DNA from: Prosopocoilus inquinatus
Taxonomy: Eukaryota; Arthropoda; Insecta; Coleoptera; Lucanidae
Direction: 5' to 3'
Length of the DNA stretch: 64,000 nucleotides
Assembly: GCA_036172665.1 (NCBI GenBank)
Contig: CM069878.1
Span: 22,743,501-22,807,500, forward strand
Shown here: positions 1,787-37,700 of the stretch, piece by piece
Layout of the letters: each line of letters opens with the position of its first letter
Position numbering within the stretch: the stretch's first letter is position 1
Program-made: the position numbers and the translations under genes
The notes under the pieces: model-generated
Seen by the model: only the letters and a program-made list of their open reading frames with translations
Told to the model about the DNA's origin: nothing
Databases searched by the model: none

Positions 1787-3255
1787 ATGAAGCTAGCAGT
1801 TGTAACAGTGCTTCTGTGCGCCACTTCCATTCTGGGGTATTCCATTCGCGCTCCTGGAGTGCCTGCTCCTGTTTGTACCGATGAAGTTTGTGATGCAGCA
1901 GATGGGTGTCGTTGTGCATCTCCGACTTCTCCATTACCATTGGAACAAACACCACAGGTCGGTCAGTCAGAAAAAAAAAAGTTCATTAAGAAATGTTGAT
2001 ATTTTATTTTATATTCACAGACGTTTAGTTAAAATATACAAAAAGATAAACTTTTTTTAAATTATTTTGGTTATCTATATATAAACTCTTGAGTATAAAG
2101 ATAATGCGCAAGTAATTGAGAACTAATGACTTCTTCAAGTGTTCATCAGATATAGTGGGCCTTTGAAGACTGTCTGCGATTTACATTGACGTTTCGACAT
2201 TGGTCCCATTACATATTCCGTAAATCGCTTTATGTTTTCAGCTGGTATCCTTGATCTTTGACGATGCCGTAACCGATGCCATTACGACGAATTATCATCT
2301 GCCACTCCTCAGTGGACGTACAAATTCAGATGGATCTCCAATTGGAGTCACCTTCTTTGTACCACACGAATGGAGTGACTACGTCAGAGTTAACGAACTC
2401 TACAACATAGGTTACGAAATTGCTGTGCATTCCATCACCAAAAATGCTTTGAGCAGTTATTGGCGTGATGCAACAGTTGAAGAACTGGTGGATGAATTCG
2501 GAGGCCAACGTACGATCCTAAATGCTTTTGCAAACATTCCCCTAGATGATATCTTAGGAGCTAGGACGCCCAATCTGGAGTTAGCTGGAAACTTCACATT
2601 CCGTGCCTATCAACAATCTGAAATTACATACGACAGTTCTTGGCCAACTTTGAGCTCGTCACCTTTATTCCCATATAGCTTAGATTTCTTGACAAATCAA
2701 GATTGCCTTGTTGGTTCTTGTCCTAACGAAGCGTTCCCCGGCCTGTGGGTTGCTCCGATCGTAAATCTGCTTGGAGCTAACGACGTCCAATGCAACACCC
2801 TGCATGGTTGTGGTGTAGTGTAAGTAATTACATACATTTTGTTCACTGCGATTTTACGGATATACAAATTTTACAGAGGAGATAGAGACGATATCTCCGG
2901 ATGGTTAATAGAAGAATTCCAACGCGTTTATGGGTCAACCAAAACTCCAATTACATTGGCGATAAGTTCCGCCTTCTACACGATTTCCGGGGGTGGTTTC
3001 GAAGGCCTACAAGATTTCTTGGATTATCTAGCCACACTGAATGACGTCTTCCTGGTAACACAAAAGCAGGTGGTCGATTGGACAAGAAACCCAGTTCCAC
3101 TTGCCAATTTCCATCCGGTCATCACTCAACGTGCTGAAGAATGTGAGCCTTTGACTTGCCCTGTATTGAAAGAAGAGGAAACCAGATACTTAAGAGTTTG
3201 CAATACCTGTCCTCAAGTCTACCCGTGGCTGGGAAATCCTCTTGGTTTAGCATAA
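1787..3255 (+). CDS. secreted chitin deacetylase-like protein (group V type), three exons
   Basis: Exons 1787-1957, 2242-2819 and 2877-3255 join with GT-AG introns (GTCGGT..CAG and GTAAGT..CAG) and matching phases into a 375-residue protein. Residues 1-17 form a signal peptide. A short Cys-rich linker (about residues 30-42) precedes a polysaccharide deacetylase (CE4) fold from residue 58. There is no chitin-binding or LDLa domain, and the length fits insect group V deacetylases, which act in the gut lumen or peritrophic matrix. Motif 1 is IFDD (62-65) and the DSS of motif 4 is at 188-190. Motif 2 reads HSITK (120-124), so the second metal-binding histidine is lysine. Motif 3 is RTPN (165-168). 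The motif 5 region AFYTIS (282-287) lacks the usual histidine. The fold assignment is strong. Loss of full catalysis is inferred, and binding to chitin without deacetylation is possible. The ATG is the first after the promoter. Confidence 0.9.
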
Positions 3256-8150: not shown

Positions 8151-8515
8151 TTAGTCTGAGCCACTGTCATCTAACATTAAACTAGAACATGTAAAACATA
8201 ATGTGCGCATTTCAAGGTGCTCCTTACAAACGAATTTACTGCACATATCACATAAAATATTTGTTTTTCTGTCTGCTTGCCCTGGACAAATGCTGCATCT
8301 TCCTCGTTTATTTTGTGGTAGGTCCGGGTGTTTGTATTGTTGAAGTAAGTTTCCAAACCCTGCATTTTCAATGGCCTTATGAATTTTCGTTGTCTTTGAT
8401 TGGGGATATTGAATTCTATTTTCTATTTCTTGTTTTACTAATTCCTCGCCTAGTTCTAGTAAGAAGCGGCGTCTTCCAGTTTTATTTTTCTATGTATTGT
8501 CAAGCTCAGAAAATA
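8151..8515 (-). pseudogene. piggyBac transposase, 3' part with cysteine-rich C-terminal domain
   Basis: Reading on the minus strand from the left target duplication (8516-8519), the frame continues the transposase exactly as expected if the 6.4-kb insertion is ignored. It meets an in-frame TAG after about eight codons, then runs open with GRRRFLLELGEELV and ends in the Cys/His-rich zinc-binding module typical of piggyBac (CSICPG, ILCDMC, FVCKEHL). The natural stop TAA is at 8153-8151. This shows that the LTR element inserted inside the coding region. Confidence 0.88.
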
Positions 8516-8519
8516 ATAC

Positions 8520-8846
8520 TGTTACGTTTCTAGGGTTTATGTTTATTTATTTAAACGAATAAAACACTCGATAAAAACTTAACCGTAATTTAATAAAGCT
8601 TAAAAACTAATTTATTTGTAATAATTTATTTTCACACTAAAATCTAATTTCGACGGTCGCTAGTTAGAACTCGACTGACTCGTGAGTCAACTCCGGGCGA
8701 TTTTATATCATTTGCTGCCGTCTGGAAGTCTCTACGCTGGAAGATTCTAGTCTGTTCGATGTAGGCCCCGATGGCGTGACGGCCGATGACACATAACAGC
8801 GAACCGACTTCTTGACGCCTTGTGCTAAGCCGGTTGGCGCGCCACA
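8520..8846 (-). repeat. 3' LTR of the gypsy element (327 bp)
   Basis: It is identical to the copy at 14587-14913 except at three sites: near 8649 and 8671, in the TATA-distal part, and near 8827. The gag-pol frame enters this LTR and stops inside it at 8705-8703. AATAAA on the minus strand at 8547-8542 would serve as the poly(A) signal in the R/U5 part. Confidence 0.93.
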
Positions 8847-11800
8847 CTGCCCCCTTCTTAAAAACGTTTCGTCTCGAAATGTTCCTGGTGATAGTCTTGA
8901 AGGAGGGTGTCGGAATCTACATGCTGGCCCATTCTTGCAACTTCCCGTCTGGAAGAAGTAACAGTCTACGGTTTTGCTGTGGCTGACTGTTGCCTGTGGG
9001 TGGTGGCTGCAGACTAGGACTTCAATTCCCGTTCTGTGGAAGATGACTTCCAGCATGCTTCGGATTACTCTCCAGTCTAGTCCGTCCAATCCGCAGCCCA
9101 ATTTGGGGATGGCTAACTTCATCTGATGGTTCTCTATTAGCTGTCTCCTCAGGCTATATAGGGCTCTCCACATAGTCACATAGTCAGGTTTACCGCTTGA
9201 TGTCTTCTTAGTGACTAAATAATGCACGTGGCGCCTCCGATCTGCCGTCGAATCAATGATCTGCAAGCTCTTGCCTACCACGGGATGCTGTCTTCGTAGC
9301 TCCTCGATTTGGCCAAATTTCTTCCTAAACACCTGAGCGATTCCTTTGGACATTTTCAGGTCTTCTGCTACGCAGTGGGCCAGACTGTACTCCAGTGGCA
9401 CTTTAAAGAGATCTTGTTGCTTCTCCGTGGTCACTCCAAACCGTGCCTTGCTTCCTTTGGCGTGATGAGACATGAAGGTTTCGAAGTTCACTTCGGAAAC
9501 TTGCGCCCTTTGTACTGTCCCTTCATCTGCTTCTCCATGGTAAGGGGCTATCCGGTTGAAGTGGATTACTTTGGGTTTGCCATGGGGGACCTTCTTGATG
9601 CGGTAAACGACGTCGTTGATCCGTTTCATCACTTTGTAAGGACCTTCCCAAGAGGTCTGTAATTTTGGGGAGAGGCCTCGACGTCTTTGGGGGTTATAAA
9701 GCCAGACCAGTGCTCCAGGTTGGTATCCCCCGTGTTGAGCGTTGATGTCATAGTGCTCCTTCATCCGATCACTGGCCGTCTGTATATTGTGACGCACTTG
9801 GTTGTGGATATCATCCATTTCCCTGCGTAATTTGCTCACGTAATCTTCGTCGGCAGAGACTTCGCCAGGCTTCACACCAAACTTCAGGTCGCAGGGCAGT
9901 CTCGGCTCTCGCCCGAATACCACTTTCGCGGGAGTCTCCCCTGTTGTCTCATGAACAGATGAGCGGTATGCCATTAGAAAGAGGGGGATGTACGTGTCCC
10001 AGTCCCTCTGATGATTGGAAACGACCTTGGACAAATGTCGGTTGATGGTTCTATTGAACCTTTCCACCATTCCGTCCGACTGTGGGTGGAGTGCAGTTGT
10101 TCTAGTTTTTCGTACGCCGAGCAGAGTACACACGTTCTTGTACAAGGCCGATTCAAAGTTCCTTCCTTGGTCTGAATGCAGTTCCATAGGTGCACCATAC
10201 CGACTGATCCATTCCCTGACAAGGACTTCCGCAATAGTGACTGCCTCTTGGTTAGGTAGGGCGTAAGCTTCAACCCACTTACTAAAGTAGTCCATTACCA
10301 CGACGATGTACTTGTTTCCACCATTCGTTTCTGGAAACGGGCCGGCTACATCGATGACAACTCTCTCAAAAGGACTTCCAACGTTGTACTGTGTCATGGG
10401 AGCCTTACCCCGCCTGTGGGGGCCGTTACTGGCTGCGCAGACTGCACACTTTCTGCACCAATCCTTCACGTCTTCCTTGCAGTTCACCCAGTAAAATCTT
10501 TCGCGCACCTTCTCCATAGTCTTCTTAACTCCCAGATGCCCTCCCGAAGTTCCATCGTGAAGTTCCCTCAGAACTTCTGGCACCCTATTCTTGGGAATTA
10601 GCAACTGTGTCTTCTCTTCCATGCCTTCTGGATTCTCCATGCTTCGTCTCAGAAGACCACGATCCAACACTATGGAGTCCCACTGCGCCCAGTATGATTT
10701 CACGGACGGTGCACATGGTGCTACCTCTTCCCAGGTAGGCCTCGTGTCCCTGCTTTTCCACTCTAGCACTAATTTCAAATCCGGGTCGTTCTCCTGGTCT
10801 CTTCGCAGTTCTTCGGCTTGCCATTTGTCGTCAACAATGGCTGTCCTCGCAGTCGTGGCTACTTTCTCGTCCAAACGACTACAGTGCTTACAGTTTTCGG
10901 CACAGGGTCTTCTCGACAAAGCATCGGCATTTCGATGGCTAGTTCCTGCCCGATGCTGAATTTCAAAATCGTACTCCTGAAGTCGTTCGATCCATCGTGC
11001 AACTTGCCCTTCTGGGTTCTTGAAACGGAGAAGCCATTTTAGAGCGGTGTGGTCGGTCCTCAGCAGGAAGCGTCTACCATACAAGTACTTGTAGAAGTGT
11101 TCTATCGTTTTTACGACGGCTAGCAATTCCCTTCTTGTGACGCAATAGTTTTGATCCGGCTTTGATAGGACTTTACTGAAGTAGCCGATCACCTTCTCTT
11201 GCCCCTCTTGTATCTGGGAGAGTACGCCACCAATCCCAACGTTGCTAGCATCTGTGTCCACGACGAATTTGCCTTCCGGGAAAGGATAACTCAAAATAGG
11301 AGCACTAATCAAGTACTGCTTTAGTTGTTCAAAGCCAATTTGACACTGTTGGTCCCATTCAAATGGACGACCTTCTTCAGTGAGTTTTGTTAACGGCTTA
11401 GCAATGTCTGCAAATCCAAGAACGTAGCGCCGATAGTAAGTGCACAGGCCAAGGAAACTCCTTATTTGGTGTTTATTTCTGGGAGTTGGCCAGTCTTTCA
11501 CCACCTGAATCTTCACAGGGTCCAGGGCGATTCCATTTCCATTAACAATGTGCCCCAGGTAATTCACTTCCTTCTGGAACAGGTGACACTTCTTGAGGCT
11601 AAGCTTTAGTCCAGCTCCGCGAAGCCGCTGGAACACTCCTTCCAGGTTCCTTAGGTGGTCGTCGAACGTCTTTCCCACGACAATTATGTCGTCAAGGTAC
11701 ACCATGCACGTTGTCCAGGACAGACCTTTCAGAACCGTCTCCATTAACCTCTCGAATGTCGCTGGGGCATTACATAATCCGAATGGCATCACTGTGAACT

Positions 11801-14489
11801 GCCACAGACCCATACCAATGGAAAACGCCGTCTTTTCTCGATCTTCGGGCGCCAGCTCCACTTGCCAATATCCACTCTTTAAGTCCAAAGCTGAGAAGAT
11901 CTTTGAGCCGGCCAGGGTGTCCAGGGTATCATCAATCCGTGGCAGGGGATAGCTGTCCTTCTTGGTGACATTATTGAGTAACCGGTAGTCTACACAGAAC
12001 CTGGTGGACCCATCCTTCTTCTTCACAAGCACTACTGGTGACGCCCACGGGCTGCTTGATGGTTCTATTACATTATCCTTTTCCATCTCGCGAATAATGC
12101 GTTCCGCTTCCTCACGCTTCGCCAACGGTAATCGCCTTGGAGCTTGACGGATAGGTCTTTCTTCTCCAGTCTCTATTTTGTGTTTCACGACATCAGTTCT
12201 TCCCTTGGATCCATTTTCTATCTCAAATACATCTTGATAGCGGCCGATCAGGTTCTTTGCTTTTGTCTTCTGGTCTGGAGTCAATTCCTGGGCTGTTGAC
12301 AAAACCATTTCCCATAATTTCCTTGGGACTTTCGCTTCTGGCACGTTTGCTTCAAGGTGGCGGGAGATGGAGGACACCATGGTGCAGCTTCCCAAGATGG
12401 TTCCTTTCTTGATATTGACGGAGAAACAATTGACGTTCATCAGGCGGACAGGTACTTCCTTCTTCGCCGTCAACAACATTTTCCCAACCAGGACTCCTCT
12501 TCCAATCCTTTGATCATCAGTATTAGGTTCAACCATAATGACTTGCCCATCTTGAAAAACACCGTCCAGTTTTGCGTCGACGTTAACCTCAGTCCTGCTG
12601 GGTAATACAACGTCTTCAGCGAGGACTACTCGAGCGGCCACGTCTCCTCGTTGATGTAGAACCAATTCCTCATTATTGACCGCCATCACGCCACGCTTTA
12701 AGTCCAATTGGAACCCGTGGGCACACATGACGTCCATGCCCAAAATTGCCTCGTCCTCTATATCTGCCACCAGTGCACGGTGTTTTATTGGAGTTGAACC
12801 AATGGTGATGATAACCTCTACTTCACCGTGGATAGTTGCTGATGTTCCAGTTGCAGTTTTCAGTTTCCACTTGGTCGGCTCGGTGCGTCCAGATGACTTA
12901 ATGACGTCGGGTCTTAGGATGGTCTTCGTCGCACCCGTATCCAACAACATGGTGTGAGGAATGTCATCAATGGTGACATCCACGAAGACACTGCTGGTTA
13001 ACTGCCGTAGGGATATTACTTGTTTGGCCTTCGTCTTTGGGGGCCTTTGAATACGGGTCGACGTTTGGCCCTCTGCACCGGCCCGGCTTAGTTTAACTGT
13101 GGCTTCCTTGGATCCTGTCTGGGCTTTGGACATCGCCTGCGAACATGTCCTTCGTCCTGGCCTTTCCAGCGGCTTTTTCTGCTTGAAGACCTGTTCCACA
13201 ATGCGGCGAACATCCTCGGCGGTGGTATACTCCCTGGGTCGCTCCTTTATAGCAGATCCCACCTTGGCGTTAGCGGATTCTTCCTCTTTTTCCTCTTGGA
13301 AGTCCATAGCCGCTCGCACCTTGACATGCCCTCTTGAGACTCGTCTCGCCGCTTCAAATTCCAAGGCATAAGCCAATGCGTTCTTGGATGTCTTCGGATG
13401 GGCCATTCTCAATGCCTGCTGGTTGTCTGGGTCACGGATTCCATCTATGAAGATCTGCACCGTCAAACATTTGAGGAATTCAACAGGAGCTGTGGGATAT
13501 GCCAACTCGGCCAGCCGCGCTACGTCCGCTTCGAATTCCTGAAGACTTTCTCCGGATTTCTGACAGCGATTCCTCAACTGCGCATGGTATACCTCGGTCA
13601 GATGGGCCTGTCCGTAACGCATTTCCATCCTATTCACAAGCTTGTCGAAGTCTTCTTGTTCCTCTGGCGGCATCGTCTGTAGCACATCGATAGCGTCCCC
13701 TCTCAAGGCCACAATTAACGAAGTGGCTTTTTCGCTGGCCGTCCATCTGTTCGCTTTTGCTGCTGCTTCGAACTGTTTGAAGTAGTTGGGCCAAGAAGAC
13801 TTTCCATCGAACGTTGGTGGTTTTACTTTCAATTTCGAATTTTCTGTTGGTCCTTCCACAATTCGGGTTTCATTATTTTCTAGTGTTTCTACTGGTGGCT
13901 GATCCCCGAACACTCGCAACCCCGCCATGATTTGTTCCAGATTTTTGATTTTATTATCCTGCTGGAATATTATTTCTTCCACATTTTCTTGCAAGTTCCT
14001 TGTTTCTTCCGATATTTTTACCACTAGTTGATCTTCAAGTCCTTTTGTTTGTTCTAGAAATTTCTCGTCGAAATTTCTGGATTGCTCTCGAAATTTCTCG
14101 TCTAAGTCTCTAGATTGTTCCAACAATTTATTCTGTAATTTGTCGAAATTTCCAGCTTGTTCTAGAAGCTTCTCCTCTAAATTTCTGGATTGTTCCATTA
14201 ATTTAGTTCGCAACTCGTCTTTGAAGTTTACAGATTGTTCTCGAAGTTCGTCCTTGAAATTTCTGGATTGTTCTCGAAGTTCATCTTTCAAGATTTTATT
14301 AAAATCGACGGGACCACACGAAATTTCGAAAAGGAAGGTATCTGGGTCTTCACCAGCTGTCAACAAATCGGATCGGAGACGCTGTTGAAGTGCGCCTTTC
14401 AAACCACAGGTTTCTAACTCTCGTTCTTCCAATTCGGTTTTTAATTCGGCCACTTTTAGGTCTTTCAACAAAATTTTTCGCGTAGCCAT
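8703..14489 (-). CDS. Gag-Pol polyprotein with SAP motif, macrodomain and CCCH finger
   Basis: This is one uninterrupted frame of 1928 residues from an ATG, 97 bases after the 5' LTR. Order by residue: SAP-like motif (about 8-42); 11-residue repeats of the EQSRNF(D/K)E type forming a coiled coil (about 66-185); Gag core (about 220-400); aspartic protease LLDTGAT (515-521); RT with FCVDYRLLN (831) and YLDDII (931); RNase H with VDTDAS (1077), E1121 and D1146; integrase with H1311/H1318/C1345/C1348 and catalytic D1380, D1440, E1476 (35-residue DE spacing). Residues about 1690-1830 resemble the TARG1/OARD1 macrodomain: SLAHCVAED (1702-1710), TKK (1760-1762) and GCGLD (1798-1802), so the lysine and aspartate used by TARG1 appear kept. 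A CCCH finger follows at C1843, C1851, C1857, H1861 (C-x7-C-x5-C-x3-H). The last 47 residues are coded by the 3' LTR. No CCHC Gag knuckle and no frameshift between gag and pol are seen. Confidence 0.95.
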   Translation of the reverse strand: MATRKILLKDLKVAELKTELEERELETCGLKGALQQRLRSDLLTAGEDPDTFLFEISCGPVDFNKILKDELREQSRNFKDELREQSVNFKDELRTKLMEQSRNLEEKLLEQAGNFDKLQNKLLEQSRDLDEKFREQSRNFDEKFLEQTKGLEDQLVVKISEETRNLQENVEEIIFQQDNKIKNLEQIMAGLRVFGDQPPVETLENNETRIVEGPTENSKLKVKPPTFDGKSSWPNYFKQFEAAAKANRWTASEKATSLIVALRGDAIDVLQTMPPEEQEDFDKLVNRMEMRYGQAHLTEVYHAQLRNRCQKSGESLQEFEADVARLAELAYPTAPVEFLKCLTVQIFIDGIRDPDNQQALRMAHPKTSKNALAYALEFEAARRVSRGHVKVRAAMDFQEEKEEESANAKVGSAIKERPREYTTAEDVRRIVEQVFKQKKPLERPGRRTCSQAMSKAQTGSKEATVKLSRAGAEGQTSTRIQRPPKTKAKQVISLRQLTSSVFVDVTIDDIPHTMLLDTGATKTILRPDVIKSSGRTEPTKWKLKTATGTSATIHGEVEVIITIGSTPIKHRALVADIEDEAILGMDVMCAHGFQLDLKRGVMAVNNEELVLHQRGDVAARVVLAEDVVLPSRTEVNVDAKLDGVFQDGQVIMVEPNTDDQRIGRGVLVGKMLLTAKKEVPVRLMNVNCFSVNIKKGTILGSCTMVSSISRHLEANVPEAKVPRKLWEMVLSTAQELTPDQKTKAKNLIGRYQDVFEIENGSKGRTDVVKHKIETGEERPIRQAPRRLPLAKREEAERIIREMEKDNVIEPSSSPWASPVVLVKKKDGSTRFCVDYRLLNNVTKKDSYPLPRIDDTLDTLAGSKIFSALDLKSGYWQVELAPEDREKTAFSIGMGLWQFTVMPFGLCNAPATFERLMETVLKGLSWTTCMVYLDDIIVVGKTFDDHLRNLEGVFQRLRGAGLKLSLKKCHLFQKEVNYLGHIVNGNGIALDPVKIQVVKDWPTPRNKHQIRSFLGLCTYYRRYVLGFADIAKPLTKLTEEGRPFEWDQQCQIGFEQLKQYLISAPILSYPFPEGKFVVDTDASNVGIGGVLSQIQEGQEKVIGYFSKVLSKPDQNYCVTRRELLAVVKTIEHFYKYLYGRRFLLRTDHTALKWLLRFKNPEGQVARWIERLQEYDFEIQHRAGTSHRNADALSRRPCAENCKHCSRLDEKVATTARTAIVDDKWQAEELRRDQENDPDLKLVLEWKSRDTRPTWEEVAPCAPSVKSYWAQWDSIVLDRGLLRRSMENPEGMEEKTQLLIPKNRVPEVLRELHDGTSGGHLGVKKTMEKVRERFYWVNCKEDVKDWCRKCAVCAASNGPHRRGKAPMTQYNVGSPFERVVIDVAGPFPETNGGNKYIVVVMDYFSKWVEAYALPNQEAVTIAEVLVREWISRYGAPMELHSDQGRNFESALYKNVCTLLGVRKTRTTALHPQSDGMVERFNRTINRHLSKVVSNHQRDWDTYIPLFLMAYRSSVHETTGETPAKVVFGREPRLPCDLKFGVKPGEVSADEDYVSKLRREMDDIHNQVRHNIQTASDRMKEHYDINAQHGGYQPGALVWLYNPQRRRGLSPKLQTSWEGPYKVMKRINDVVYRIKKVPHGKPKVIHFNRIAPYHGEADEGTVQRAQVSEVNFETFMSHHAKGSKARFGVTTEKQQDLFKVPLEYSLAHCVAEDLKMSKGIAQVFRKKFGQIEELRRQHPVVGKSLQIIDSTADRRRHVHYLVTKKTSSGKPDYVTMWRALYSLRRQLIENHQMKLAIPKLGCGLDGLDWRVIRSMLEVIFHRTGIEVLVCSHHPQATVSHSKTVDCYFFQTGSCKNGPACRFRHPPSRLSPGTFRDETFLRRGQCGAPTGLAQGVKKSVRCYVSSAVTPSGPTSNRLESSSVETSRRQQMI
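8847..8859 (-). other. polypurine tract of the gypsy element
   Basis: Directly before the 3' LTR the minus strand reads AAGAAGGGGGCAG. This is a purine run at the expected position for plus-strand DNA priming. It is also coding, since the gag-pol frame passes through it. Confidence 0.7.
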
Positions 14490-14567
14490 TGTTTTTTTCC
14501 GATACTGTACTTATTTAATAATCTGATTAAATTTAATTTACTTTAAATTGTTTATTTATTTGCACAA

Positions 14568-14585
14568 ACCCGCACACCGACACCA
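14568..14585 (-). other. primer-binding site of the gypsy element
   Basis: One base inside the 5' LTR the minus strand reads TGGTGTCGGTGTGCGGG. The leading TGG is complementary to a tRNA 3' CCA, as expected for minus-strand priming. The primer tRNA (3' end ..CGACACCA) could not be assigned. Confidence 0.6.
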
Positions 14586-14586
14586 C

Positions 14587-14913
14587 TGTTACGTTTCTAG
14601 GGTTTATGTTTATTTATTTAAACGAATAAAACACTCGATAAAAACTTAACCGTAATTTAATAAAGCTTAAAAACTAATTTATTTGTAATAATTTATTTTC
14701 ACACTAAAATCTAACTTCGACGGTCGCTAGTTAGAATTCGACTGACTCGTGAGTCAACTCCGGGCGATTTTATATCATTTGCTGCCGTCTGGAAGTCTCT
14801 ACGCTGGAAGATTCTAGTCTGTTCGATGTAGGCCCCGATGGCGTGACGGCCGATGACACATAACAGCGAACCGACTTCTTGACGCCTTGCGCTAAGCCGG
14901 TTGGCGCGCCACA
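14587..14913 (-). repeat. 5' LTR of the gypsy element (327 bp)
   Basis: It matches the 3' LTR at 324 of 327 positions by eye. It begins (minus strand) TGTGGCGCGCC next to the target duplication ATAC and ends GTAACA just before the primer-binding site. It contains the promoter described separately. Confidence 0.93.
14740..14774 (-). promoter_or_regulatory. LTR core promoter (TATA + Inr)
   Basis: On the minus strand TATAAAA lies at 14774-14768 and TCAGTC at 14745-14740. The initiator A (14743) is 31 bases after the TATA start. This divides the LTR into U3 (14913-14744) and R/U5. The same elements occur in the 3' LTR at 8707-8701 and 8678-8673. Confidence 0.7.
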
Positions 14914-14917
14914 ATAC

Positions 14918-16279
14918 GTAAGCATTAATTCCAGCAAAATCCACAAGATCAAAAAATACTGCAAGTGGCCATCTTCTTGTCGATCTTTTTGTTCCTAGCC
15001 ATTTGATCTATAGTATCAACACCGAATTTAGTGGAATTATAATTTAGTATTACTTCCGGTTTTCTGTGCTCTTCGTCGGATACGTCAAATCTATTATGTT
15101 GAGTAGACAACAAAACTACAGCCTTTCCTTTTTTAGGAACGTAAGAAACTAATAATGTATTGTTGGCATAAGCAAAAACAGATGATTTCTCTTCACGAAA
15201 TTTTGACGGCAGCATACAGGAAGGAAGCTCTTTACGGTTTTTACGGACAGTTCCGACAAGAGTTAATTTTTGTTTCAATAATTCCTGCCCAAGACTGTAG
15301 CTAGTAAAGAAGTTATCAGTAGTAATATTGCGACCAGAGCCGTTTAGGTGCGTTACCAAATCTAACACCACCCGCTTTCCTTGTTCCTGTTCCTTTGTGT
15401 TTCCTATTTTGCCAGAATATATTTGCAGGTTTGTAATGTATCGAGAGTCACAGTCTACAGCCATCCATATTTTTATACCATATTTTCCCGGCTTTGAAGG
15501 AATATAAACCTTGAAACCACATCTTCCTCTAAAAGTACACAGGTGTTCGTCCGTATATAAGCATTCTTGCATTGACTAACGAACATATTAGTTATTTCAG
15601 CTATAGGTTCAATCTTGTTCTTAGTTGCTTCTTTTCTAACTTGTCGTGTACCTCTGTCATCAAATCGTAGACAGCTAAGTATGCTCGTGAAACGATGTCT
15701 GGACATTGTAGCTCTAAAAATTGGATAACCGTACTTTTCTGACCAAAATTCTTTTAGATCTTTCCCGTGACCCTTCTGAATACCATAAAGCAAGCTTAGA
15801 CCCAAAAATGCCAAAAACTCACTGCGTTGTAATTCCTTCCAATATTTTAGGCTTGACTTCTTTTCCTCTTGTACATTTGCCCTTTCATTGGTGTGCAAGC
15901 ATATTTTGTCTATGATTTCGTTCGTCATAAATGCACAAAAGCAGTCTGTGCGGGTGGACAAATTTAAATGTTTTGATATACCAGGAATTTGTTTTATAAT
16001 ATTCCTTGACTGTGTCTTTTTACGTCCTGGCTCCATACTACTCCACTGTATTATTCCATCCTTGCTAATCCAAACTTCATCATTCCCGTCTTAATTATCA
16101 GTATCTGAGCTGCTTAGATTTGCTGCATTTGCTTCGACTACCTGCAGTTCAGTGAAATCTTCGTCTGCATCACTACCATCGCTCTCGTTATCTATGATCT
16201 CAAAATCAGAATTGTATACATTCATCAAAGCTTGTTCTTCACTGTAGCCTCTTGCAAAGTTTATATTATAATCCGCCAT
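14918..16279 (-). pseudogene. piggyBac transposase, 5' and catalytic part (broken)
   Basis: The ATG is at 16279-16277. An acidic N-terminus runs to an in-frame TAA at 16093-16091, after which the same frame stays open, including the ATG at 16036. A frameshift near 15570 moves the reading to a frame ending near 14950. This second part holds the DDD-type catalytic core typical of piggyBac: an Asp in VDCDS, one in ITTDNFF and one in GVDTIDQ. A second frameshift or small deletion lies near 14970. Past it, the frame encoding AVFFDLVDFAGINAYV runs into the retrotransposon insertion at 14917/14914. The remainder of the gene is on the far side, at 8515-8151. Family identity is clear. The nonsense change, two frameshifts and the insertion make it non-functional. 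Confidence 0.9.
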
Positions 16280-26544: not shown

Positions 26545-27350
26545 TTGGCAATCCCAGTACGTAAAAAATATAATCCTCCTGCCCTGTCAAATCTAAGACC
26601 TATAAATATTTTTCCAACTTTATCTAAAATATTAGAAAAAATCATGGCATGTCAATTGCGTGACCATTTATCTTTTTATAATATCACCTACACATCAATC
26701 TGGCTTCAGACCAGGGCACAGTTGTAATACTGTTCTTTTAAAAGTATTAGATGATATCATAAAAGCCACAGATGCAGAAAATCTGACAATTTTGGTGGCT
26801 TTAGATTATTCTAAGGCTTTCGACACCATAAACCACGAGCTTCTAATTTCGAATTTGCATTATGCTGGTTTAAATGATGAAACCACAATATTAATAATTG
26901 AATACTTACGTCATCGTACTCAGACTGTTAAAGTTGGAAATAATTTAGCACCAGCTATGGACATCCCAAGAGGAGTTCCGCAAAGTTCCATATTTAGGCC
27001 TTCATTGTTTTGCATTTACATCTTTCATTTGCCTGATTATATTCAATATTGCAAATTTATTATTCATTTTCCTCTCACAATCTAGATGAGGCTTCTTTAA
27101 AAATAAATTCTGATTTACAAAACGTATACAAAAGTTCACAATTACATGCTTTGGTTTGAAATCTCTTGAAATCTACTGCTATATTATTTGAACCTAAAAT
27201 TCATCGAAGCAGAGCTATTAACAAAATACAATTGAAAATTAACGACACGCCCATCCAACTTCAGGAGAATATAAAAAGCCTGGACGTTCACATAGATGCA
27301 AATTTAAGGTTTGATAAATGCAAAATGCGTACATGAATCTTAAACTCATA
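26545..27350 (+). pseudogene. LINE reverse transcriptase fragment (Jockey/CR1-like), broken
   Basis: The frame from 26545 (NPPALSNLRPINIFPTLSKI) passes by a frameshift near 26695 into the frame containing QSGFRPGHSCNT and VALDYSKAFDTINHELL, typical RT fingers/palm motifs with the first catalytic Asp. A further break near 27000-27085 loses the YADD region. Downstream, in pieces with stops, the sequence still resembles the C-terminal part (KIQLKINDTPIQL) up to the mariner insertion at 27351. It is a decayed, 5'-truncated copy. The continuation lies at 28013-28250. Confidence 0.85.
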
Positions 27351-35794: not shown

Positions 35795-37700
35795 TTGATA
35801 ATTCTACAAAATTCTGGTCTTGCGTTAGATCTAAAAAAGATAGCACGAGGATTCCTGGTCGTATGCTCTCTAATGTTTTGAATGTATTGAATCAGTGTTT
35901 ACTCCACCATGTACCTCCTCTATACTTATTCCCGACAACTATAGCAGCCTTTTCACTTTCTTAGATATCAAAGAGATCACTGAACAGGATGTCCACCATG
36001 CCTTATCTAAGATAAAAAAAACTCTGTGACTGCTGGACCTGACCAAATTCTAAGTTTTTTTGCTACATAATTGTAAATTCGCGTTTGTGAAAACTTTGCA
36101 TCCGATTTTCAACGAAGCTCTTCCCTTCGTTTTCGGAATATTCTAAAGTCATTCCTGTATTTAAAGGTGGTGATGCTGCAAACATATCTAATTGTCGTCC
36201 TATTCCTTTACTCTACAATTTTTCTAAAGTTTTTGAAATTATTTTATACTCTCACCTATATCCTCACATTAAACAATATTTATGTCGGAACAGCATGGCT
36301 TTGTGGAATAGAGCTCGACCGTAACAAATCTTGCATGCTTCTCTCAATTGAATCTCTTGACCATGGCTCTCAAGTTGATGTTTATACAGATCTTGCTAAA
36401 GCTTTTGATCGCATAAATAATAAACTCTTAATTTCCAATTTAAGTTCCTATGGTTTTAGCCATTCATTAAAACTTCTTCTGCAGTCGTATCTTTTGAATA
36501 GGCAACAACGAGTTTATTACAACGGTATTTCTTCTCGTACTTACACTGCTTTTTCCGGTATTCTTCAAGGTTCCAACTTAGAACCTCTTTTTTCTATACA
36601 TTTCATAAATGACCTTCCCTTGTCCCTTACCAAATATAGCAAGATCCTAATGTACGCCGACGATGCCAAATTATTTCGTGTTGTTGATAGCCAAGATGCC
36701 CTTCTTCAAAAGGACTTAAGTTCCTTTTCTGACTGGTGTTCCTCTAACTGACTCGCTTTAAATGTTGACAAAAAGCAAAACTATTTCCTTCTCGCGTAAA
36801 AAACGCAAATTTTTCTTTCACTATCAGCTAAATGGTCAATCCTTGAAATACTCTACTGTTATTAAAGATCTCGGCGTTGTTTTTGACGAACGTCTTCTGT
36901 TTAATCACCATGTCAATGATATTGCAACTAAATGGAAATGATATTGCAACTAAATCCATTTCGCTTTTGGGCTTTATCGTCCGGAATGCTCGAGACTTCA
37001 CTAATCCCGCTGCCTTAATTTTTCTCTTTAACGCTTTTATCCTTTTACGACTCTAATATCCATCCTTAATTTGGTTTCCGATTTATAATTACACATACAG
37101 ATGTCCTTGAACAAGTTCAGCGCAGGTTTCTTAAGTTTCTTTGGTTTATAGAATATGGTGTGTATCCTCCTAGAGGTTTTCCTCATGAAACCCTACTTAA
37201 TGTTTTTAATCGCTTATCGCTATTCATGGAAGACAAATCTCAGCTTTGCTTTTCTTACATCAGTTGATCCACAATCAAGTTGATGCTGCTGCTCGCTTGG
37301 AAAAGATTAATTTTCATGTACCGCGCATTATTGGCAGGAACTCTTTGACTTTTTATTTGCCTACCTCGTATACCAATGCTTTAGTACGGTCTTCTATTTA
37401 TTTTGCCTTTACTCTTTACAGCAATCTTTGTAACAACATTGATATCTTCAATCTAAATGTCGTCGGCTTCTGAAAGAATTTGGTGAATACCAACTCTTCT
37501 CTTAACTCTTCTTAACAACCTCCTAATTTTTGCGTTCACCGTGCCTTTCACTTCTTTATTTACTTACTTCTTTCATTTATTTGTTTAATTACTTTCCTTT
37601 TCTTTTCACTTCTCCCTGATTTTAGTATTAGTTTTAGATGTAACGTAGGTTTAGATGTTTTGTTACTTTCCACTACTTTTTTGCTCTGCTGGTGGTGCTG
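35795..37700 (+). pseudogene. LINE (Jockey/CR1-like) reverse transcriptase, degraded
   Basis: Beginning with remnants such as KFWSCVRSKKDSTRIPGRM, broken frames run through the RT. The longest (36167-36751) carries DLAKAFDRINNKLLISNL, the palm region GILQGSNLEPL and the catalytic LMYADDAKLF. Frameshifts and stops occur before 36290, near 36751 and near 36950, where TGATATTGCAACTAAAT is duplicated. The C-terminal part (37246-37473, with DAAARLEKINFHVPR) is recognisable. The 3' end is probably near the AATAAA at about 37733. It cannot encode an active enzyme. Confidence 0.85.

Follow-up and report, generated by a model that had tools for sequence, protein, structure and literature searches.

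The locus raises the question of why a retrotransposon in the beetle Prosopocoilus inquinatus should encode, directly behind its integrase, a domain resembling an enzyme that removes ADP-ribose. The stretch of DNA that was analyzed, called the window here, comprises 64,000 nucleotides. We consider it reasonably probable (roughly 0.6) that an insect Ty3/gypsy lineage long ago gained a TARG1-type macrodomain at the C terminus of its Gag-Pol-integrase polyprotein, that it has kept the domain as a standard module, and that the domain is a presumably active hydrolase shielding the element from PARP-type control. The features of the locus, by position in the window, are as follows.

8520 to 14913, minus strand: complete Ty3/gypsy-type LTR retrotransposon, recognized by paired LTRs, TG..CA ends, and the target site duplication (TSD) ATAC
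14914 to 14917, no strand: right copy of the TSD ATAC (direct repeat)
14587 to 14913, minus strand: 5' LTR (from comparison of the LTR pair)
14569 to 14585, minus strand: probable primer binding site, starting TGG, one base past the 5' LTR (from reading the sequence)
8703 to 14510, minus strand: single gag-pol-macro ORF of 1935 aa, no stops (ORF list; first ATG at 14489, codon 8)
14370 to 14468, minus strand: SAP domain at the Gag N terminus (PF02037, 26.5 bits; cutoff, 23.9)
12726 to 12983, minus strand: aspartic protease (PF13975/PF13650)
11544 to 11996, minus strand: reverse transcriptase, the Pfam-matched part in the piece searched (PF00078, E=6.4e-35)
10971 to 11279, minus strand: RNase H (PF17917, E=7e-33)
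10425 to 10598, minus strand: integrase H2C2 zinc-binding domain (PF17921, E=2.1e-20)
10092 to 10373, minus strand: integrase core, rve (PF00665, E=5.1e-13)
9543 to 9644, minus strand: integrase p58-type C-terminal domain (PF22938, E=2e-11)
9012 to 9434, minus strand: TARG1/OARD1-type macrodomain, ORF residues 1693 to 1833 (match to human TARG1)
8901 to 8981, minus strand: CCCH zinc finger, after the macrodomain (PF00642, 27.1 bits; cutoff, 20.5; E=4e-06)
8847 to 8859, minus strand: polypurine tract adjoining the 3' LTR, within the coding frame, where it specifies the LRRGQ tail
8520 to 8846, minus strand: 3' LTR (from comparison of the LTR pair)
8516 to 8519, no strand: left copy of the TSD ATAC (direct repeat)
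14952 to 16090, minus strand: piggyBac-type transposase pieces in two overlapping frames, right flank (PF13843, E=1.1e-41 and 1.2e-25)
8151 to 8489, minus strand: Cys-rich 112-aa ORF, left flank, probable C terminus of the flanking piggyBac transposase (by eye)

The element is of the gypsy type, as a preliminary description of this DNA had stated. Paired LTRs with TG..CA termini, a short TSD, and a polypurine tract are all present, as in Ty3/gypsy LTR retrotransposons, and the Pfam matches in the polyprotein follow the Ty3/gypsy order of protease (PR), reverse transcriptase (RT), RNase H (RH), and integrase (IN). The macrodomain had been placed at residues of about 1690 to 1830 (9000 to 9422, with no strand given), in an uninterrupted frame after the integrase. 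Indeed, it was found at residues 1693 to 1833 (9434 to 9012, minus strand) of one stop-free ORF, between the integrase C-terminal domain and the CCCH finger in the same frame, and this frame enters the 3' LTR for 48 codons, stop included. The ORF was searched in pieces, with the integrase domains at P0002 469 to 637, the p58-type C-terminal domain at P0001 87 to 120, and the macrodomain at P0001 157 to 297. The macrodomain also occupies, as proposed, the place of env in gypsy: the minus-strand ORFs of at least 100 aa inside the element are the polyprotein and a 106-aa ORF within pol, so that no env ORF follows pol, and an assignment to Errantivirus (gypsy with env) was rejected on that ground. 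The third-position G+C content of the macrodomain (0.58) equals that of the RT (0.57), as expected for a long-resident coding part. The CCCH finger, the SAP domain of Gag, the termination of the ORF within the 3' LTR, and the insertion beside piggyBac pieces go beyond the preliminary description. Downstream of its SAP domain, Gag contains degenerate repeats with a spacing of mostly 33 nt (14016 to 14292), by eye a coiled coil.

The domain had been assigned to the TARG1/OARD1 type, with a profile comparison suggested as the check. The match to human TARG1 (C6orf130) is very strong, at 102 bits over 141 residues in phmmer (E=2.4e-28), a value at which a chance match was rejected, and by sequence and structure model alike the macro fold is closest to TARG1. 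The PF01661 profile, however, gave 16.4 bits in the window copy, below its cutoff of 22 (E=0.009), and reached the cutoff in 3 of the 10 relatives scanned (P0118, 22.1; P0140, 24.1; P0154, 32.7). The macrodomain of the bacterial antitoxin DarG is likewise TARG1-like, and the T. aquaticus enzyme acts on ADP-ribose of DNA and RNA bases (PMC13036486). The element domain lies far below the NCBIfam DarG cutoff (40.1 bits versus 250; E=2.6e-10), its match being restricted to positions 26 to 153 of 338. In BFVD, the best match by E value to the element macrodomain was the model of Kadipiro virus VP8, with 42% identity. Several insect-associated RNA virus polyproteins were also among the best structural matches there. 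A single-sequence scan of a viral sequence collection yielded no relative of the window macrodomain, an alignment-based scan of it yielded one distant macrodomain (L001), and a scan of genome contigs yielded 13 bacterial TARG1-like loci that were included in the tree described below. The loci L001 to L014 are TARG1-like macrodomains from 13 bacterial MAG contigs, mostly of Clostridia, and 1 IMG/VR contig.

Human TARG1 uses Lys84 to attack the distal ribose and Asp125 to resolve the resulting intermediate; its signature has been published as TKx(30,35)Px[IL]GxGxD (PMC6397177). The window macrodomain matches this signature exactly and keeps the equivalents of both residues; the motifs SLAHCVAED, TKK, and GCGLD, on which the earlier assignment was based, are all there. 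We counted residues in 136 proteins, namely, the window, 120 relatives (the best 120 of 158), and 15 from a further search, a few of which are stand-alone or incomplete. The Lys84 position was K in 134 of them, the other 2 being incomplete, and the Asp125 position was D in 134, with G in P0114 and one incomplete. A less redundant set of 22 element rows showed K84, D125, and W129 in 21 each and H32 in 20, with 2 gaps. Among the distal-ribose side chains, T83 and D125 are kept in the window, and the residue S35, which contacts the distal ribose in the human enzyme, is replaced by Ala in the window and in 18 of the 22 element rows (2 gaps), as well as in 7 of 21 animal TARG1 sequences. The window retains the leading Gly of the GxG loop, a position at which 10 of the 22 element rows have Ala, Ser, or Val and half (7/14) of the nonanimal sequences (13 bacterial, 1 IMG/VR) have Ala. 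Because this Gly varies, the strict signature is rare in the family, being found in 11/22 element rows and 2/120 relatives (the best 120 of 158), versus 19/22 and 118/120 for a relaxed form with G, A, or S. Four copies look damaged: P0206 (Arg in place of K84 and changes in the GxG loop, with D125 kept), P0149 (three GxG-loop residues missing, which accounts for the odd D125 cell in the 22-row set), P0147 (T83 to Pro), and P0114 (D125 to Gly).

Relatives were sought with a 1100-aa query that included the macrodomain region. The best 120 of the 158 proteins matched were examined, with 102 from Aromia moschata, 15 from Molorchus minor (both longhorn beetles), and 3 from other contigs. All 120 matched the macrodomain by BLAST, in part by construction since relatives without a macrodomain could not appear with this query; 118 matched the integrase C terminus, and 2 matched the RT. 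Copies lacking the region or decaying in it had been named beforehand as grounds for doubt, and within the reach of this query the macrodomain persisted in all of the 120 examined, but a few copies have the altered motifs just described. Both relatives with an RT are contig ORFs outside the Aromia and Molorchus gene models. The 117 models from these two species match both the macrodomain and the finger region, most with Gag and the integrase C terminus, and show no RT and inconsistent junctions. The absence of RT from these models is probably due to predicted introns, a reading suggested by the length limit of the search, which left out full polyproteins of more than 1925 aa, and by the varying junctions; RT-deleted derivatives are possible. 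RT-integrase-macrodomain fusions, for which a search of insect genomes had been suggested, occur in other elements: the contigs P0117 and P0118 each have PR-RT-RH-IN-macrodomain in one ORF, with a CCCH match. For P0117, the best match among solved structures is Ty3 Gag-Pol, ending at residue 1134, and human TARG1 matches residues 1181 to 1316. The integrase C-terminal domain is likewise joined to the macrodomain in P0149 (Leptinotarsa), P0151, and P0154. A frame artifact was rejected, as the window frame is contiguous DNA and the same architecture recurs in other elements. Further searches (15 proteins; at least 120 of 2472) added the beetles Brassicogethes, Pyrocoelia, Aquatica, Gonioctena, Callosobruchus, and Leptinotarsa and the leafhopper Macrosteles. 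The module is present in several beetle families with the catalytic columns kept, and it is probably carried by a leafhopper, the Macrosteles proteins being taken as element fragments by their kinship only.

A macrodomain tree was built from 73 sequences and 145 columns (22 element, 21 animal TARG1, 16 unlabeled, 13 bacterial, and 1 IMG/VR). The 22 element macrodomains form one clade (100/98), recovered in 100% of 200 bootstrap trees in a bootstrap that had not fully settled, and a single origin is likely because of this clade. The protein P0233 joins the element macrodomains at 87/84. The clade stands beside, not inside, animal TARG1, with weak support for the split (82/90), and a topology constrained to unite the elements with 12 insect TARG1 sequences was not rejected (p-AU 0.275). 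Capture of a host hydrolase, the origin first suggested for the domain, thus stays plausible, with an insect donor neither shown nor rejected. As a gauge of joint inheritance, distances in the integrase C terminus and in the macrodomain were compared, with an outcome that varied with the rows used: r was 0.56 across 12 rows that include near-copies; the value was 0.11 (p 0.26) in 9 rows without near-copies and 0.46 (p 0.017) in 7 rows when P0149 and P0154, with a partial integrase C terminus, were also removed.

Identity between the window and 11 relatives, the number aligned differing by region, was 81 to 85% for the RT (2 relatives), 73 to 75% (10) and 57% (1) for the integrase C terminus, 57 to 61% (11) for the macrodomain, 48 to 62% (10) for the protease, 50 to 61% (8) for the Gag core, and 25 to 45% (8) for the SAP/coiled-coil part. 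Of the 35-residue linker between the integrase C terminus and the macrodomain, 20 to 34 residues align in 8 of the 11. The macrodomain evolves like the protease and the Gag core, above the SAP/coiled-coil part, which supports purifying selection at the protein level.

The domain is a predicted active ADP-ribosyl hydrolase with a Lys/Asp mechanism. Lying at the end of the polyprotein, it would be synthesized in equal amounts with integrase and enter the particle, where it would strip ADP-ribose added by the host. Candidate sites of the mark would be Glu and Asp residues of integrase, Gag, or target chromatin and also U/T bases or phosphate ends of the element RNA and cDNA. The CCCH finger would hold the macrodomain on nucleic acid, and by removing ADP-ribose the domain would keep PARP-type control from acting on reverse transcription or integration. 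The likeliest role would be to free the element's protein or nucleic acid of host ADP-ribose, ahead of integration or in its course, in view of the known TARG1 substrates and the effects of PARP-1 on fly mobile elements. TARG1 removes ADP-ribose from Glu and Asp and from RNA ends (PMC6582358). In flies without PARP-1, eight mobile elements were misregulated, five up and three down, three of the eight belonging to the gypsy superfamily; ten more, nine of them gypsy-superfamily, rose short of the FDR limit, and the authors state that the up-regulation may be indirect (PMC7712786).

The CCCH finger bears on which of these marks would be the target. Its closest solved relative by sequence is CPSF4 (CPSF30), with a chain E=6e-07. 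Among the best 120 of the 158 relatives, the finger region was matched by BLAST in all 120, the full CCCH pattern was present in 114, and the LRRGQ or LRRGA tail was present in 105. The finger is absent from P0154, which runs into the terminal tail, and from P0151, both of which group with the Macrosteles proteins (100/94); P0128 and P0129 stop too early for it to be judged, and the Macrosteles proteins stop too soon past the macrodomain. When 112 new proteins, among the best 120 of 2472, were screened for a CCCH finger or an RRG tail, 4 were flagged, all of them element-like, so that among the matches listed the TARG1-CCCH pairing occurs in elements only. Because P0154 and P0151 have the macrodomain without the finger, the macrodomain was apparently gained first, and the finger, present in most of the beetle members examined, would be a beetle-side module, or else it was lost elsewhere. 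No CCHC knuckle was matched in Gag by Pfam, and the CCCH finger may therefore serve RNA binding; in beetles, it suggests a nucleic-acid substrate.

A narrower form of the main reading can be drawn from this, in which the finger holds the polyprotein end on element RNA or cDNA and the macrodomain removes ADP-ribose from U/T bases or ends that would block reverse transcription. This form is a tentative one. It fits the finger adjoining the window macrodomain and recurring among the relatives, and uracil-linked ADP-ribose is hydrolyzed by human TARG1, by two of the three fly Targ paralogues (Targ1 and Targ3), and by bacterial TARG1-like enzymes (PMC13036486). With the finger and this recent TARG1 biochemistry, nucleic-acid-linked ADP-ribose would be at least as likely a substrate as protein Glu and Asp. 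The lack of a finger in P0154 and P0151, however, weighs against a strictly nucleic-acid-specific role. We also know of no ADP-ribosylated retroelement RNA.

The main rival to hydrolysis is that the macrodomain only binds ADP-ribose or poly-ADP-ribose and tethers integrase to PARylated chromatin or DNA breaks. Chromoviruses have a chromodomain after the integrase C-terminal domain that guides integration, and the macrodomain sits in just that place. The S35A change and, in many beetle copies, G121A/S could moreover weaken catalysis yet keep binding. However, Lys84 and Asp125 would not be needed for pure binding, and their retention in nearly all proteins counted disfavors such a tether; TARG1 homologs are hydrolases as well (PMC6397177, PMC6582358, PMC13036486), and the single insertion site beside a piggyBac gene is neutral on targeting. 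We regard the tether as unlikely. Much less probable still is a neutral passenger, a host TARG1 copy gained by read-through and now drifting. The motif changes in P0206, P0147, P0149, and P0114 are what it would produce, but the module is found in elements that differ by 39 to 43% from the window macrodomain (11 compared), occurs with kept catalytic columns across several beetle families and probably a leafhopper, and lies in a window ORF intact over 1935 codons. An assembly chimera or gene-model artifact, to which the unreliable annotation of the 117 Aromia and Molorchus models might point, can be dismissed, as the window ORF is contiguous DNA between paired LTRs and a TSD and the same architecture occurs independently in P0117 and P0118.

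With the hydrolase reading preferred, the element can be set beside known systems. It shares with TARG1/OARD1 the fold, the catalytic Lys and Asp, and the signature, and differs in the fusion to a retrotransposon integrase and, in beetles, to a CCCH finger and in having Ala at S35. It shares with other Metaviridae the LTRs, TSD, and PR-RT-RH-IN order; unlike them, it has a single gag-pol frame that continues across the macrodomain and the CCCH finger and ends within the 3' LTR, and a SAP domain in Gag. Macrodomains are likewise found in other replicating elements, namely, alphaviruses (nsP3), rubella virus, insect-associated RNA viruses, and Kadipiro virus (VP8). Orchid Ty3/gypsy elements with an AlkB m6A RNA demethylase are also LTR elements with a captured eraser of a covalent mark, and that capture was proposed as an answer to host surveillance, with AlkB activity shown in vitro; in contrast to the beetle element, they belong to plants and use a separate ORF and another chemistry (PMC9289625). 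Domain capture by LTR elements is thus already known. The enzyme class would be new for such elements, since no LTR retrotransposon with a macrodomain was met among the listed titles and abstract openings of open-access journal papers.

Viral macrodomains are a main clue that ADP-ribosylation is antiviral. If a transposon lineage has retained a TARG1 enzyme while diverging deeply, the same argument would apply to parasites of the genome and would suggest that insect retrotransposons are held in check by ADP-ribosylation. It is conceivable, and we hold it with some doubt, that insects use ADP-ribosylation of retroelement RNA, cDNA, or particle proteins as a defense that the element counters with a CCCH-guided TARG1 eraser on integrase. 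Such an eraser would be the mirror image of ZAP and PARP12, the antiviral writers that combine CCCH fingers with PARP, and would point to an unknown insect restriction system based on ADP-ribosylation. The question is testable, since the domain is small, two catalytic residues can be changed, copies are numerous, and assays and substrates for TARG1 are known.

The window copy itself arrived recently. Its LTRs, of 327 bp each, have 3 mismatches between them, and because this divergence is only about 0.9% the insertion is young, perhaps around one million years old at insect rates. As piggyBac pieces lie on the right flank and probably also on the left, the retrotransposon probably jumped into an older piggyBac-type DNA transposon with a broken frame. 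Elsewhere in the window, neighboring open frames of 199 and 143 codons (2224 to 3252, plus strand) are without a Pfam match at E 0.01, and RT fragments of other retroelements (PF00078) lie at 26636 to 27082 and 36077 to 36748, both on the plus strand.
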